This document shows positions 27,846 to 34,205 of a stretch of 64,000 nucleotides of DNA, in pieces (the stretch's first letter is position 1; every line of letters begins with the position of its first letter). The DNA is from Dolomitihabitans soli (GTDB lineage Bacteria > Actinomycetota > Actinomycetes > Streptosporangiales > Streptosporangiaceae). The notes under the pieces are model-generated. The model did not search any database, had not been told where the DNA came from, and saw only the letters and a program-made list of their open reading frames with translations. The translations under genes and the position numbers were made by a program. The stretch spans positions 62,001-126,000 of the forward strand of contig NZ_JAKNTW010000007.1 in assembly GCF_022213955.1 (NCBI RefSeq). The letters run 5' to 3'.

Positions 27846-28847
27846 GTGGACGCGCCCGCCCTTCCCGCCATGCCCGCCCTTCCCGCCATGCCCGCCCTTC
27901 CCGCCGACGCCATCGCGCCCGCCACCGACCCCTACCGGGTCTATCTCGACTCGCTGGCCGGCGCGGAGTCCAGGCGCACCATGGCAGGCTGCCTCGACAG
28001 GATCGCCAGGGTCCTCACCGGCGACGACGACGCCACCGGGGCCGGGCAGCCGTGGCACCTGCTCCGCTACGAGCACACCGTACGGATCCGGGCCATCCTC
28101 ACCGGGCAGGGCTGGTCGCCCGCCCACGTCAACAAACACCTCGTCGCGCTGCGCCGGGTGCTGCGGGAATCGTGGCGGCTGGGCAAGATGACCGCCGAGG
28201 ACTACCAGCGGGCCGCCGACCTGCCGACCCTCCGGCACGACCGGCTCCCCGCGGGAAGCCACGTGCCGCCCGAGGTCGTCGGAGCCGTCCTCGCCGTCTG
28301 CGAACACGACGACACCCCCGCCGGACCACGCGACGCCGCCCTGGTCGCCGCCCTCTACTCCACCGGCTGCCGCCGCGCCGAGATCGCCGGGCTCACCCTC
28401 GCCGACTACGACCCCGGCGCCCGGTCCCTGCGCGTGCGCGGCAAACGCGACCGCGAACGCATGGCCTACCTCACCGGCCCCGCCATCGGCCGTCTCGAAC
28501 GCTGGCTCGCCATCCGCGGCCAGGCCCCCGGCGCCCTGTTCTGCCCCATCAGCCGCAACGGGCGGCTGCGCATCCGCGACGGCGTCCCCGTGGCGATGAC
28601 CGGCCAGGCCGTCGCCGACATCCTCACCCGCAGGCTCGCCGCCGCCGGCGCCGGCCGGAAGACCCCGCACGACTTCCGGCGCACCTTCATCGGCGAACTC
28701 CTCGACGCCGGCGTCGACCTGGCCACCGCCCAGGCCCTGGTCGGCCATGCCTCCCCCGCCACCACCGCCCGCTACGACCGCCGCCCCGAACACCGCCGCC
28801 GGGAAGCCGTCGACCGCCTCACCCTGCCCGAAGCCCGTTCCCTCTAG
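27846..28847 (+). CDS. Solitary tyrosine recombinase/integrase-like protein
   Basis: 333 residues. An N-terminal SAM-like core-binding domain (about 30-125) is followed by the catalytic domain with the full tyrosine-recombinase set: Arg176 (TGCRRAEI), Lys200 (RGKRDRE), His275-x-x-Arg278 (HDFRR), His301 (GHAS) and Tyr310 (ARYDRR). The extreme N-terminus is three repeats of PALPAM(D), encoded by an 18-bp tandem repeat (27852-27905); Met codons at 27870 and 27888 are alternative starts. No excisionase, attachment-site duplication, tRNA or cargo was seen nearby, so it looks like a domesticated or XerC/D-like chromosomal recombinase. Confidence 0.88.
   Translation: MDAPALPAMPALPAMPALPADAIAPATDPYRVYLDSLAGAESRRTMAGCLDRIARVLTGDDDATGAGQPWHLLRYEHTVRIRAILTGQGWSPAHVNKHLVALRRVLRESWRLGKMTAEDYQRAADLPTLRHDRLPAGSHVPPEVVGAVLAVCEHDDTPAGPRDAALVAALYSTGCRRAEIAGLTLADYDPGARSLRVRGKRDRERMAYLTGPAIGRLERWLAIRGQAPGALFCPISRNGRLRIRDGVPVAMTGQAVADILTRRLAAAGAGRKTPHDFRRTFIGELLDAGVDLATAQALVGHASPATTARYDRRPEHRRREAVDRLTLPEARSL
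27852..27905 (+). repeat. 18-bp tandem repeat at the recombinase N-terminus
   Basis: Three copies of a 6-codon unit: CCCGCCCTTCCCGCC preceded by GCG in the first copy and by ATG in the second and third (27852-27869, 27870-27887, 27888-27905). Each later copy carries a potential start codon, so copy-number change by slippage would add or remove N-terminal hexapeptides without a frameshift. Confidence 0.75.
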
Positions 28848-28957: not shown

Positions 28958-29569
28958 ATGCTGCCCCCCATCGACGAACTGCGCGAGCGGATCACCGAGA
29001 ACCTCTCCGTGTTCCGCCGTCGCGGCGTGCCCGTACCCGACGGGCACCGGCAGGCCGCGGTGACGATCTGCGTGCTGGAGGACGCGGAACGCCGGCCGTA
29101 CACGATCGTGATCAAACGCGTACGGCAGGGCCGCAACCCCGGGCAGTGGGCGCTGCCGGGCGGGCGGCTCGACGACGGCGAGGAGGCCGTGGCGGCGGCG
29201 CTGCGCGAACTGGCCGAGGAGACGGCCGTCACGGGGGTGAGCGTGGCCGGCCTCCTCGACGACTACGTCGCCGACTCCGGCTTCGTGATCACCCCGGTCG
29301 TGGCGTTCGGCGGCACCCAGACCGCACGCCGTGACCCCCGGGAGGTCGCCTCGATCCACCGGATCCCGCTGGAACGCTTCCTGGCCGAAGGCGTCCCCCG
29401 CTGGACCACCGGCGGCGACGGGCGGAGCCTCCTGCAGATGCCGCTCGGACCGGGAATCCTGATCCACGCCCCCACCGGGGCGATCCTCTGGCAGTTCGCC
29501 GAGGTCGCGCTTCGGGGCGGTGACCTGCGGGTCGCCGACGTCGCCCAGCCTACGTGGACACGCCGGTAG
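28958..29569 (+). CDS. NUDIX hydrolase
   Basis: 203 residues. The Nudix box appears as GGRLDDGEEAVAAALRELAEE followed by TAV, matching Gx5Ex7REUxEExGU except that the last Gly is Ala. A C-terminal stretch with 'HRIPLERFLAEGVPRW' resembles CoA/NUDT7-like pyrophosphatases. It should cleave a nucleoside-diphosphate-linked compound; the substrate is uncertain. The ATG at 28958 is preferred; a GTG at 28949 is in frame. It is followed by the candidate RNA gene. Confidence 0.88.
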   Translation: MLPPIDELRERITENLSVFRRRGVPVPDGHRQAAVTICVLEDAERRPYTIVIKRVRQGRNPGQWALPGGRLDDGEEAVAAALRELAEETAVTGVSVAGLLDDYVADSGFVITPVVAFGGTQTARRDPREVASIHRIPLERFLAEGVPRWTTGGDGRSLLQMPLGPGILIHAPTGAILWQFAEVALRGGDLRVADVAQPTWTRR

Positions 29570-29577
29570 AACCCCTT

Positions 29578-29603
29578 GGAATAAGGAGTGCTGGACGTCC
29601 GTT
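29578..29603 (+). promoter_or_regulatory. SigR-like promoter (GGAAT-N18-GTT)
   Basis: GGAAT at 29578-29582 and GTT at 29601-29603 are separated by exactly 18 bases. This is the consensus of promoters read by the thiol-oxidative-stress ECF sigma factor SigR/SigH in actinobacteria. A start 7-8 bases downstream falls at about 29611, precisely where the RNA helix described next begins. Confidence 0.6.
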
Positions 29604-29610
29604 ACAGTCG

Positions 29611-29766
29611 TAGGGCCGATGTGGTCTGTGTCCCCCGGGCCGCAAATTACCGCCTTCACGGAATACCGTTCGGCTGGAGCCGTGTTGTGCCTCTCGCCGA
29701 GGAGGCGACCGCCACATCGGCCTTAGCTTGATCATGAGGGGCCCCGCACCAGCGGGGCCCCTCATG
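29611..29766 (+). ncRNA. Candidate structured small RNA of about 155 nt
   Basis: A 14-bp helix pairs 29611-29624 with 29712-29725 (core GGCCGATGTGG / CCACATCGGCC). It encloses about 87 bases that fold into small hairpins: ACGG-aata-CCGT (29658-29669), CGGC-tgga-GCCG (29671-29682) and GCCTC/GAGGC (about 29690-29706). A perfect 15-bp terminator hairpin follows directly (29733-29766). A SigR-like promoter lies just upstream. No protein frame is credible here. I do not recognise the RNA; tmRNA, RNase P and SRP RNA are excluded by length or by missing motifs. Promoter, fold and terminator fit one another, which is the main evidence. Confidence 0.6.
29733..29766 (+). terminator. Perfect 15-bp terminator hairpin
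   Basis: Arms CATGAGGGGCCCCGC (29733-29747) and GCGGGGCCCCTCATG (29752-29766) pair without mismatch around the loop ACCA. It ends the candidate RNA and insulates the PlsC gene, whose start is 51 bp further on. Confidence 0.85.
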
Positions 29767-29816
29767 CACGTGCGGGGTAGGGTTGTCGGGTCCACAGCAC
29801 AGCGCGAGGAGAGTCC

Positions 29817-30479
29817 GTGCTCTACGAGGTCACCAAGATCATCGCTTCCCCCTTCCTGCACCTGCTGTGGCGCCCAGAGGTGAGCGGAGTCGGCCACGTC
29901 CCCCTCGACGGCCCGGCGATCCTGGCCTCCAACCACCTGTCGATCCTCGACTCCACGTTCCTGCCCCTCATGCTGCCGCGGAAGGTGACCTTCGTCGCCA
30001 AGTCCGAATACTTCACCGGCAACCCGCTGATGGCCGCCTACATGCGCGCCACCGGGCAGATCAGCGTCGACCGCGCGAGCGCCGCCGGCGCCCAGGCGGT
30101 GCTCGACGCCGCCGTACGCGTCCTGGAGGCCGGCGAGTTGTTCGGCATCTACCCCGAGGGCACCCGCTCCCCCGACGGCCGCCTCTACCGGGGAAAGATC
30201 GGCGTCGCCTGGCTCGCCCTGACGACCGGCATCCCGGTCATCCCGGTCGCCATGTCCAACACCGAGAAGGTCCTGCCCCCCGGCTCGTCCGTCCCCCGCC
30301 TGGCCAGAATCGGGATCAAGATCGGCGAGCCCATTTCCTTCACCGGCGAGGCCGGGCACGCCCGCACCAGACGCGAGACGACCGACCAGATCATGGCCGC
30401 CATCCAGCGGCTGTCCGGCCAGGAATACGTCGCGACGTACGCCGCCACGCACAAGGCCCGGCTCAGCGAGGCCGCGTGA
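29817..30479 (+). CDS. plsC: 1-acylglycerol-3-phosphate O-acyltransferase family protein
   Basis: 220 residues from a GTG start (CGAGGAGAG upstream). Acyltransferase block I NHxxxxD is His40-Asp45 (SNHLSILD), block II-like 'ISVDRAS' and block III 'YPEGTRSP' are present, and block IV 'TGIPVIPVAMSNTEKVLP' follows. PlsC enzymes make phosphatidic acid at the inner membrane face. The gene symbol reflects the family; paralogues are common in actinomycetes, so this may not be the main housekeeping copy. Confidence 0.85.
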   Translation: MLYEVTKIIASPFLHLLWRPEVSGVGHVPLDGPAILASNHLSILDSTFLPLMLPRKVTFVAKSEYFTGNPLMAAYMRATGQISVDRASAAGAQAVLDAAVRVLEAGELFGIYPEGTRSPDGRLYRGKIGVAWLALTTGIPVIPVAMSNTEKVLPPGSSVPRLARIGIKIGEPISFTGEAGHARTRRETTDQIMAAIQRLSGQEYVATYAATHKARLSEAA

Positions 30480-32578: not shown

Positions 32579-32687
32579 GCCGCACCTCCCCGCAACGCAA
32601 GGTATGTTCCGGAGTTCTGCCCATCGTGAAGATCATTAGCCATACCAAGAACAGGTAATTACCGTGTCTTTGGACTTGCGATCTTGC

Positions 32688-32703
32688 TCGAACTATTGTT
32701 CTA
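32688..32703 (+). promoter_or_regulatory. SOS (LexA) box
   Basis: TCGAACTATTGTTCTA matches the actinobacterial LexA site TCGAAC-N4-GTTCGA at 11 of 12 arm positions (one change, G to T, in the right arm). It lies 8 bases before the ATG of the radical SAM gene, where bound LexA would block initiation. It also argues for the start at 32712 rather than the in-frame GTG at 32664. Confidence 0.75.
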
Positions 32704-32711
32704 ATCGGGCG

Positions 32712-34205
32712 ATGCGCTGGGACAACCTCCGACTGACCGACACCGGCGAGGTCGAAACCGCCACGCCGCTCTTCGCCCGCGGAGCCGTCACCCGCACCTT
32801 CGACACCCCCGAATTCCGGGGCGTCACCTTCTACGAGATCCACGCCCGTTCCATCATCAACCGCGTCCCCGGCGGCTCCCACGTCCCCTTCGAGTGGACC
32901 GTCAACCCCTACCGGGGCTGCACCCACGCCTGCTCCTACTGCCTGCTGGGCGACACCCCGATCCTCATGGCCGACGGCGGCACCCGGCCGATCGCCGCCC
33001 TCCAGGCCGGTGACCGCGTCTACGGCACCCGGACACACGACGGCCACCCGCGCCACGTCGTCACCGAGGTCCTCGCCCACTGGCCCACCGTCAAACCGGG
33101 CCACCGGCTCACCCTCGCCGACGGCACCAGGCTGGTCGCCAGCGGAGACCACCGCTTCCTCACCGCCGGCGGCTGGAAACACGTCACCGCCGCCGGACCC
33201 GGCCACCCGCACCGCCCCTTCCTCACCCGCGCCGACCGCCTCATCGGATCCGGCGACCTCGCCGACGCCCCGCAGACCACCGCCGGCACCCCGGACCTCC
33301 AGGTCGTCTCCGTCGAGCCACTCGGCTTCGAGCTGCCCATGTTCGACATCACCACCGGCACCGGCGACTTCATCGCGAGCGGCGTCGTCTCCCACAACTG
33401 CTTCGCCAGGAAGACCCACGAATACCTCGACCTCGACGCCGGCCACGACTTCGACTCAAAGATCATCGTGAAGGTCAACGCCGCCGAACTGGTCCGCAAG
33501 GAACTCGCCGCGGCGCGCTGGGGCGGGCACCACATCGCGATGGGCACCAACGTCGACTGCTACCAGCGCGCCGAAGGCCGCTACCGGCTGATGCGCGGCA
33601 TCATCGCCGCCCTGCGCGACGCGGCCAACCCGTTCTCCATCCTCACCAAGGGCTCGCTGATCCTGCGCGACCTCGACCTGCTGACCCAGGCCGCCGAGGT
33701 GACCGACGTCAGCACGGCCGTGTCCACCGGCTTCGTCGACGAGGAGCTGTGGCGATCGGTCGAACCCGGCACCCCGAGCCCCCGCAAACGCCTGGAGGTC
33801 TGCGCCACGCTGACCGACAGCGGGATCCCGTGCGGCGTGCTGATGGCCCCGATCCTGCCCTACCTCACCGACTCCCCCAACGCGCTCGACGCCGCCGTGC
33901 GGCAGATCGCCGCCGCCGGCGCGACCAGCGTCTCCCCGATCATGCTGCACCTGCGGCCCGGCGCCCGCGAATGGTTCATGTCCTGGCTCGCGCGCGAACA
34001 CCCACGCCTGGTCCCGCGCTATCAGGAGCTGTACGGCAGGGGCGCCTACGCCCCGAAGTCCTACCAGCGGCGGATCGCCGACCAGGTCGGCGAGCTCGCC
34101 AGGCGACACGGAGTGGGCCGGTCCGCCTCCACCGCCCGCCTCCGCCGGGTCCGCGCCACCACTCCGCCGCCGCCACCGGGCGACGAGCAACTCACACTCC
34201 TTTGA
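32712..34205 (+). CDS. Rv2578c-family radical SAM protein carrying a mini-intein
   Basis: 497 residues as translated, about 344 after splicing. The host protein begins MRWDNLRL and has 'FEWTVNPYRGCTHACSY', where the radical SAM CxxxCxxC motif starts (Cys70, Cys74). The third cysteine is interrupted: Cys77 begins a 153-residue intein ending SHN at residue 229, and Cys230 (CFARKTHEYLDLD) is the +1 nucleophile that becomes the third cluster cysteine after splicing. The radical SAM barrel continues with GTNVDCYQRAEGRYRLMR and ends near residue 497. The protein is SplB-like and should bind [4Fe-4S] and S-adenosylmethionine; its reaction is unknown. The SOS box in front implies DNA-damage induction. 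Confidence 0.9.
   Translation: MRWDNLRLTDTGEVETATPLFARGAVTRTFDTPEFRGVTFYEIHARSIINRVPGGSHVPFEWTVNPYRGCTHACSYCLLGDTPILMADGGTRPIAALQAGDRVYGTRTHDGHPRHVVTEVLAHWPTVKPGHRLTLADGTRLVASGDHRFLTAGGWKHVTAAGPGHPHRPFLTRADRLIGSGDLADAPQTTAGTPDLQVVSVEPLGFELPMFDITTGTGDFIASGVVSHNCFARKTHEYLDLDAGHDFDSKIIVKVNAAELVRKELAAARWGGHHIAMGTNVDCYQRAEGRYRLMRGIIAALRDAANPFSILTKGSLILRDLDLLTQAAEVTDVSTAVSTGFVDEELWRSVEPGTPSPRKRLEVCATLTDSGIPCGVLMAPILPYLTDSPNALDAAVRQIAAAGATSVSPIMLHLRPGAREWFMSWLAREHPRLVPRYQELYGRGAYAPKSYQRRIADQVGELARRHGVGRSASTARLRRVRATTPPPPPGDEQLTLL
32940..33398 (+). other. Mini-intein (in-frame protein-splicing element)
   Basis: 153 codons. Block A is CLLGDTPILMADGG with Cys1; block B is LVASGDHRFL (intein His71, Ser in the usual Thr place); block F is ELPMFDITTGTGDFIASG (Asp136); block G is VVSHN followed by extein Cys, with His152-Asn153. 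No LAGLIDADG or HNH endonuclease lies between blocks B and F, so it is a class 1 mini-intein that can splice but not home. Inteins at this cysteine of Rv2578c-type proteins are, to my knowledge, already catalogued. Confidence 0.9.

Follow-up and report, generated by a model that had tools for sequence, protein, structure and literature searches.

A predicted structured RNA gene family of the Actinomycetes, with a SigR-type promoter motif ahead of many of its copies

The nudix-plsC gap of Dolomitihabitans soli

The window analyzed here is a stretch of 64,000 nucleotides from the Dolomitihabitans soli contig NZ_JAKNTW010000007.1, and all coordinates given without a locus name are positions within it. 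The gap of interest lies between a nudix-type frame, whose last position is 29569, and a plsC-type acyltransferase gene, assigned by Pfam, whose first position is 29817. No convincing protein gene is seen between the two in the ORF list of the window, so that on this point the gap is as a sequence-only reading had described it. A mechanical 68-aa ORF (29520-29726) and antisense ORFs overlap the RNA described below, and the single-base length changes that can be seen by eye among relatives, in the C-run and the loop of our first alignment, argue against a conserved reading frame.

The gap contains, on the forward strand, a promoter motif of the SigR/SigH ECF type (29578-29603), read directly as a -35 element GGAAT at 29578-29582, a spacer of 18 nt, and a -10 element GTT at 29601-29603. 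The core of a structured RNA follows at 29612-29723 and is matched over its full length by both of our covariance models, R1 and R2, scoring 106.7 bits with R2 (E value 9e-22) with the window copy itself among the model-building sequences. Beyond the core lies a terminator-like, GC-rich hairpin at 29733-29766, in which 29733-29747 pair with 29752-29766. The perfect 15-bp hairpin that had been read from the sequence as a terminator is therefore present, though it has no T-run.

The stretch 29578-29766 folds with an energy of -96.8 kcal/mol compared with a shuffle mean of -74, and none of 200 shuffles equaled it, giving a z-score of -4.7 to which the terminator hairpin contributes part. A consensus scan of 29400-29900 listed neither a terminator nor a sigma-70 promoter, which is consistent with a promoter of the ECF type and with a terminator hairpin of the kind used in actinobacteria. 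The same genome has a second copy (G000:C80:38518-38603, 82% identity with a 206-bp query), likewise found behind GGAAT-N18-GTT.

Conserved secondary structure of the RNA

Blast relatives of the RNA were found in 37 of 60 sampled genomes. The alignment on which R1 is based contains 51 distinct sequences of a set of 54 copies and was made with MAFFT without the use of structure. In this set L003 was left out by hand, L037 and L045 had no anchor match, a false anchor match (L025) and a duplicate (L057) were excluded, and L041 was re-anchored. Two-sided changes occur in 11 of 28 pairs of this alignment, and 89.5% of the cells are paired versus 31-47% in slid controls, the structure having been chosen after inspection of the alignment and its consensus fold. 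A broad alignment of 103 copies, which was fitted to a covariance model and hence leans towards the modelled structure, has two-sided changes in 20 of 29 pairs (474 cells, versus 39-79 in slid controls). In 49 of 500 shuffles the pair count came up to 20 as well; the other four measures were never equaled. The sequence-only reading had staked its RNA on conservation and compensatory base changes in relatives, and both are found.

A covariation scan over all pairs of columns returned seven pairs of the structure as its top seven and additionally revealed a two-pair extension, which we call P1b. Covariation is strong in P1, P1b, and P2. P1 closes the structure by pairing 29614-29624 with 29712-29722, and all 11 of its pairs show two-sided changes in the 103 sequences. 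Unguided consensus folding recovered this helix as well, once from the first set and once from the short forms described below. P1b joins 29630-29631 to 29708-29709, with 85.8% of cells paired. A closing helix of 14 bp had been proposed from the single sequence; the helix itself is borne out, and its extent is revised to the 11 bp of P1 and the 2 bp of P1b that covariation supports.

Inside the closing helix, a nearly invariant junction segment, CCCCGGGC, occupies 29633-29640 and precedes the P2 arm at 29652-29690. P2 is extended in the long form of the RNA, and the short form, which accounts for 46 of the 103 aligned copies, has a small loop in place of the upper part of P2, as in GCCGCUUCGAGCGGC. 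The P3 arm (29695-29707) reads CGCC-GAGGA-GGCG in the window and carries a GNRA tetraloop in most relatives. Its stem, CGCC-GGCG, is identical in 103 of 103 copies, and this invariance places P3 beyond a covariation test. Among the 102 of 103 rows in which the inner core could be tallied (one row lacks the pattern), the P3 loop is GAGA in 85, GCGA in 4, GUGA in 6, GAGGA in 6, and GACA in 1. The GAGGA loops occur solely alongside five C, in 6 of 6 copies, an association that is confounded by descent.

Energy folding of the inner core gave P3 a probability above 0.5 in 42 of 102 copies, and an alternative in which CCCCGGGC pairs with a P3 strand in 8 of 102. This alternative is the one picked when the 46 short forms are consensus-folded without guidance. 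Since both elements are invariant, the choice between them is not settled by covariation. The three internal hairpins that had been drawn in the window do not survive as such and give way to one covarying arm, P2, and one invariant arm, P3, since the minimum-energy inner fold of the window sequence alone differs from the conserved one. The modelled core measures about 110 nt and forms a closed junction, with covariation support for P1, P1b, and P2.

Distribution among Actinomycetes

At an E value of 0.001 or below, R1 matched 147 of 150 genomes of the GTDB family of the window and 82 of 296 genomes of the class. R2, built on 103 copies, matched 119 of 296 sampled class genomes, representing 55 of 115 sampled genera. 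A sample drawn across the phylum gave matches in 18 of 296 genomes, and all 18 were either the genome of the window itself or members of the same class. By these tallies the RNA is widespread in the class, though 177 of the 296 class genomes gave no match under strict filters that may have missed weak copies. The observation is confirmed and its interpretation as a structured RNA gene is supported, and the element reaches wider than the window alone could reveal.

A pattern scan of named genomes found at least 80 loci, and the 80 listed are from actinomycetes according to the record titles. Carriers among the matches listed include Streptomyces, Micromonospora, Nocardia, Gordonia, Arthrobacter, Rothia, Kocuria, Microbacterium, Cellulomonas, Brevibacterium, Nocardioides, Geodermatophilus, Saccharopolyspora, Nonomuraea, Actinomadura, [Mycobacterium] manitobense, and others. 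R1 at an E value of 1 or below matched each of the 80 pattern loci listed (81 matches), and the five weakest of these, with E values of 0.0045-0.039, came from Mycobacterium, Nocardia, and Gordonia. Because these loci had been chosen for the motif by the pattern itself, the check is independent only as regards pairing. The copies of the RNA almost certainly make up a real family of RNA genes.

Positive genomes have 1-4 copies each among the matches listed. Tandem copies with starts 180-250 bp apart were observed in L127 (389-475 and 571-657), in L034 (344-454 and 586-695), and in pairs on G150:C47 and G210:C1, and in L127 and L034 each copy has its own promoter-like motif before it. In L122, one short-type copy has a match to the Rfam family Ms_IGR-5 (RF02471; 787-977) at a distance of about 260 bp, on the opposite strand.

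Promoter motif and predicted transcript ends

The available portions of the cited papers give the SigR consensus as GGAAT-N18-GTT (PMC2375139, PMC9205884) and that of M. tuberculosis SigH as GGAAYR-N17-GTT (PMC4803200), with the same type of consensus for SigH of C. glutamicum, where GGAAC is read by SigE too (PMC10012870). Motif and spacing in front of the window RNA equal the consensus published, in those portions, for the SigR regulon of S. coelicolor and the SigH regulon of M. tuberculosis, and fall within the form GGAAT/C-N18(-19)-GTT that marks promoters of SigR-type regulons. This form is not peculiar to the window. The first 54 copies have GGAA(T/C)-N18-GTT in 46 cases and N19 in one, and 163 distinct upstream regions, many of them related and hence not independent events, have the motif at a spacing of 18 in 96 cases, 17 in 6, and 19 in 4. 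Every other spacing from 12 to 24 was found in at most 3 of the 163 copies, and mononucleotide shuffles gave a mean of 0.1 and a maximum of 1. When GTC was allowed beside GTT, 16 of the 163 copies also matched at spacing 14 and 14 at spacing 24. The 163 regions were derived from 170 identifiers by dropping the weak matches L084:2810 and L072:1452 and the duplicate L113, together with stretches shorter than 60 nt and identical ones. The SigR-like promoter motif of the sequence-only reading thus holds, and its exact 18-nt spacing recurs well outside the window.

The remaining 67 of the 163 copies do not have the N18 motif. Many of them are from Micrococcales, and several have a TTGAC-type sequence instead, which suggests that control by SigR is lineage-dependent. 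The genome of the window encodes RsrA (101.5 bits, over the cut-off), and the frame before this gene, which by eye is a SigR-like sigma factor, itself has GGAAC-N18-GTT upstream. RsrA matches were obtained in 289 of 296 class genomes, 241 of them over the cut-off, a near-universal presence that makes co-occurrence with the RNA uninformative. SigR very probably controls the RNA in the lineage of the window.

The GTT of the promoter ends 6-13 nt ahead of the modelled core, which would place the start of transcription at P1. At the other end, a perfect stem of at least 9 bp lies within 65 nt downstream in 50 of 102 long-type copies, compared with 0.43 expected from mononucleotide shuffles. Such a stem is found downstream of just 6 of 64 short-type copies, and in 25 of these 64 the ten bases that follow P1 include four or more T, so that P1 may itself end transcription there. 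By eye, six Streptomyces copies (L080, L076, L079, L113, L151, and L189) have in common a terminator loop rich in C, of the type TTCCCCCGTC; in the window copy this loop is not C-rich.

Genomic context on chromosomes, plasmids, and phages

The RNA had been placed upstream of plsC, and this is true of the window and of 26 of 63 distinct loci, of which 61 are from the family of the window; it is no feature of the RNA as a whole. The count derives from 71 loci (32 with plsC on the same strand downstream), eight of which were duplicates. Five loci were left out of this set by hand, 11 without an anchor were skipped (L028, L072, L073, L076, L077, L079, L080, L082, L084, L085, and L086), and L029 and L070 are the two loci from outside the family. 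Elsewhere the neighbors, assigned partly by eye, are of other kinds: a PHP-domain or epimerase-like gene at Streptomyces loci, a WhiB-family gene in mycobacteria, and in several Micrococcales a gene of unknown function on one side of the RNA and a DUF47/Pit-type gene on the other. In five Micrococcales genera the gene immediately upstream of the RNA (L154:2098-2751, L150:3725-4465, L208:3239-3889, L163:3457-4173, and L134:834-1421) encodes a protein of unknown function; these proteins look alike by eye, and the one of them that was scanned had no Pfam match. No constant neighbor gene was found among the chromosomal loci and plasmid copies compared, and a downstream gene kept constant across lineages, as expected for a riboswitch or cis-leader, is not seen. 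This variation of the flanking genes by lineage suggests that the RNA is independent and acts in trans.

A blastn search of a plasmid collection found 31 records with the window core and 67 with a Streptomyces core. The latter belong to Streptomyces (48), Rhodococcus (12), Prescottella (5), [Kitasatospora] (1), and Nonomuraea (1, a chromosome-sized record). Five copies from this collection were read, and GGAA(T/C)-N18-GTT is kept in four of them; the Nonomuraea copy is without the motif. Comparison of 13 proteins encoded beside nine plasmid copies gave matches only within the related pairs L271-L278 and L274-L263, and for a short piece of 48 aa between L261 and L275. A gene travelling with the RNA is ruled out for the loci compared, there being no recurrence beside plasmid copies except in related pairs; the comparison covered the plasmid records with usable annotation, which two further records lacked. 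In L276, a plasmid of Prescottella equi, an annotated erm(46) gene and an IS481 transposase are found some 2 kb from the RNA copy.

Among 50,697 phage records there were no blastn matches. In 2.9 million viral contigs, the core pattern had one exact match, L280:12476-12524, near the end of a 13.5-kb contig, which is perhaps host DNA beside a prophage, and the pentaloop form of the pattern had none. A phage-borne element is rejected on these counts. The window itself has a tyrosine recombinase gene (Phage_integrase) at 27846-28847, and a relative of it lies near the RNA in 12 of the 63 distinct loci.

Relation to known RNA families and regulons

In keeping with the failure of the sequence-only reading to match the RNA to a known family, Rfam 15 at gathering scores gave no matches on the window, nor any match over the RNA at 28 further loci with relatives. 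When the threshold was relaxed to an E value of 10, seven sub-threshold matches appeared on the window, all on or overlapping the terminator hairpin, and sbcD (13.3 bits versus a threshold of 40) was alone in reaching the core. A known Rfam family is rejected, with nothing over threshold on the RNA at gathering or relaxed settings for the window and the 28 loci. The literature searched, in the portions available, held no description of the RNA (PMC3765725, PMC11109978, PMC7157823, PMC9928087, PMC9205884, PMC4803200, PMC10012870, PMC2375139, PMC9130861, and PMC2422843). Its transcript may well already be catalogued as an scr, sar, or svr sRNA in the supplementary tables of Streptomyces RNA-seq lists.

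Among described actinobacterial RNAs, Ms1 (scr3559) offers a likeness as a widespread structured sRNA outside coding regions (PMC9130861). In S. coelicolor, according to the same source in the part available, Ms1 is an RNA of about 230 nt at the sco3558-sco3559 locus and is related to 6S RNA. The RNA described here differs in being about 155 nt long, in forming a junction, in lying at varying loci, and in having up to four copies per genome among the matches listed, and is set apart from Ms1 by these descriptions. Ms1 and 6S RNAs are recognized, in the available part of PMC9130861, by a double-stranded hairpin of some 180 nt or more that has a bubble at its center; the covarying structure found here is instead the closed junction of about 110 nt. 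The SigR and SigH regulons share their promoter motif with the window RNA and differ from it in their products, since no structured RNA of this kind was seen in the available portions of the SigR and SigH papers cited. Stress-sigma-driven sRNAs are already known as a kind; a class-wide family of junction RNAs with plasmid copies would be a new form of it.

MicA and RybB of the enterobacteria are short, Hfq-dependent antisense RNAs that depend on an ECF sigma factor. By description they resemble what is proposed here, a small RNA that acts in trans, has a terminator of its own, and is transcribed under a stress sigma factor of the ECF group. Unlike MicA and RybB, the window RNA is a junction RNA with a near-invariant core, found in one bacterial class.

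Possible mode of action

The junction segment and P3 are nearly unchanged across the class although P3 could covary, which suggests direct recognition by a conserved protein. According to the portion of PMC7157823 available, SigR responds to redox state and to antibiotics, so the RNA would be expected to be induced by thiol-oxidative stress and perhaps by translation inhibitors. Under the mechanism we propose, thiol-oxidative or antibiotic stress would free SigR from RsrA, the freed SigR would raise transcription of the RNA, and the closed junction RNA would then work in trans. A conserved protein or ribonucleoprotein would recognize its near-invariant core, that is, the CCCCGGGC junction and the CGCC-GNRA-GGCG arm, and would be sequestered or redirected for the duration of the stress. 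No protein partner was found, nor does any gene travel with the RNA among the loci compared. Protein binding is the mode that we favor over the others, at a probability slightly short of even, and the invariant core could equally reflect tertiary folding. For the locus itself, we lean moderately towards the view that 29578-29766 is an independent non-coding RNA gene of about 155 nt with an ECF promoter of the SigR type and its own hairpin end, belonging to a family of Actinomycetes outside Rfam 15 and having protein recognition as its proposed mode of action.

The main rival is that the RNA is a SigR-driven base-pairing sRNA whose C-rich junction, joined in Streptomyces by a C-rich terminator loop, blocks translation at the G-rich ribosome-binding sites of many mRNAs. 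The junction segment is indeed C-rich and is unpaired in the covariation-supported structure, the Streptomyces copies read have a CCCCC terminator loop, and both C-rich loops in Streptomyces sRNAs and targeting by C-rich loops in S. aureus are described in the available part of Moody et al. (2013, PMC3765725). Near-constancy across the class, however, points to an unchanging target rather than to shifting mRNAs; the adjoining arm is equally invariant, and the window copy has no C-rich loop in its terminator. We consider this explanation rather unlikely. A role as cis-regulatory leader of whatever gene lies downstream, plsC in the window and DUF47/Pit in Micrococcales, is improbable. It would be suggested by the recurrence of plsC on the same strand, the DUF47/Pit-type gene that comes after the RNA in several Micrococcales, and the T-rich sequence after P1 in 25 of 64 short-type copies. 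Against it, downstream genes vary among lineages and plasmids, and the RNA is followed by a strong terminator-like stem both in the window and in about half of the long-type copies. The placement beside a DUF47/Pit-type gene could still hint at a cis role in the Micrococcales. The least probable reading is that of a mobile or recombination element acting at the DNA level as a folded single strand, with no RNA gene at all, since the multiple copies in many genomes, the plasmid and tandem copies, and the recombinase genes nearby are to be set against a fixed 18-nt promoter spacing and downstream terminator-like stems for which such an element has no need, the low copy number among the matches listed, the lack of matches in phage records, and the 51 of 63 distinct loci without a relative of the recombinase within a flank of about 1.5 kb.

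A structured RNA that occurs in nearly half of the genera sampled, that has a SigR-type promoter motif before many copies, that is also carried by plasmids, and that no Rfam family covers would add an RNA arm to a well-studied actinobacterial stress circuit. It would also supply a defined RNA bait for finding RNA-binding regulators of actinobacteria, which to our knowledge are still poorly known. A further possibility, which we regard as doubtful, is that an actinobacterial ribonucleoprotein so far undescribed, built around this RNA and its class-wide near-invariant core, regulates the response to thiol and antibiotic stress, and that plasmids carry stress-inducible copies of their own that would steer the response of the host.

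Elsewhere in the window, at 32664-34205, a radical SAM ORF was identified by Pfam, and by eye it has an intein-like insert (CLLGDTPILMADGG ... VVSHNC) at the region of its cysteine motif.
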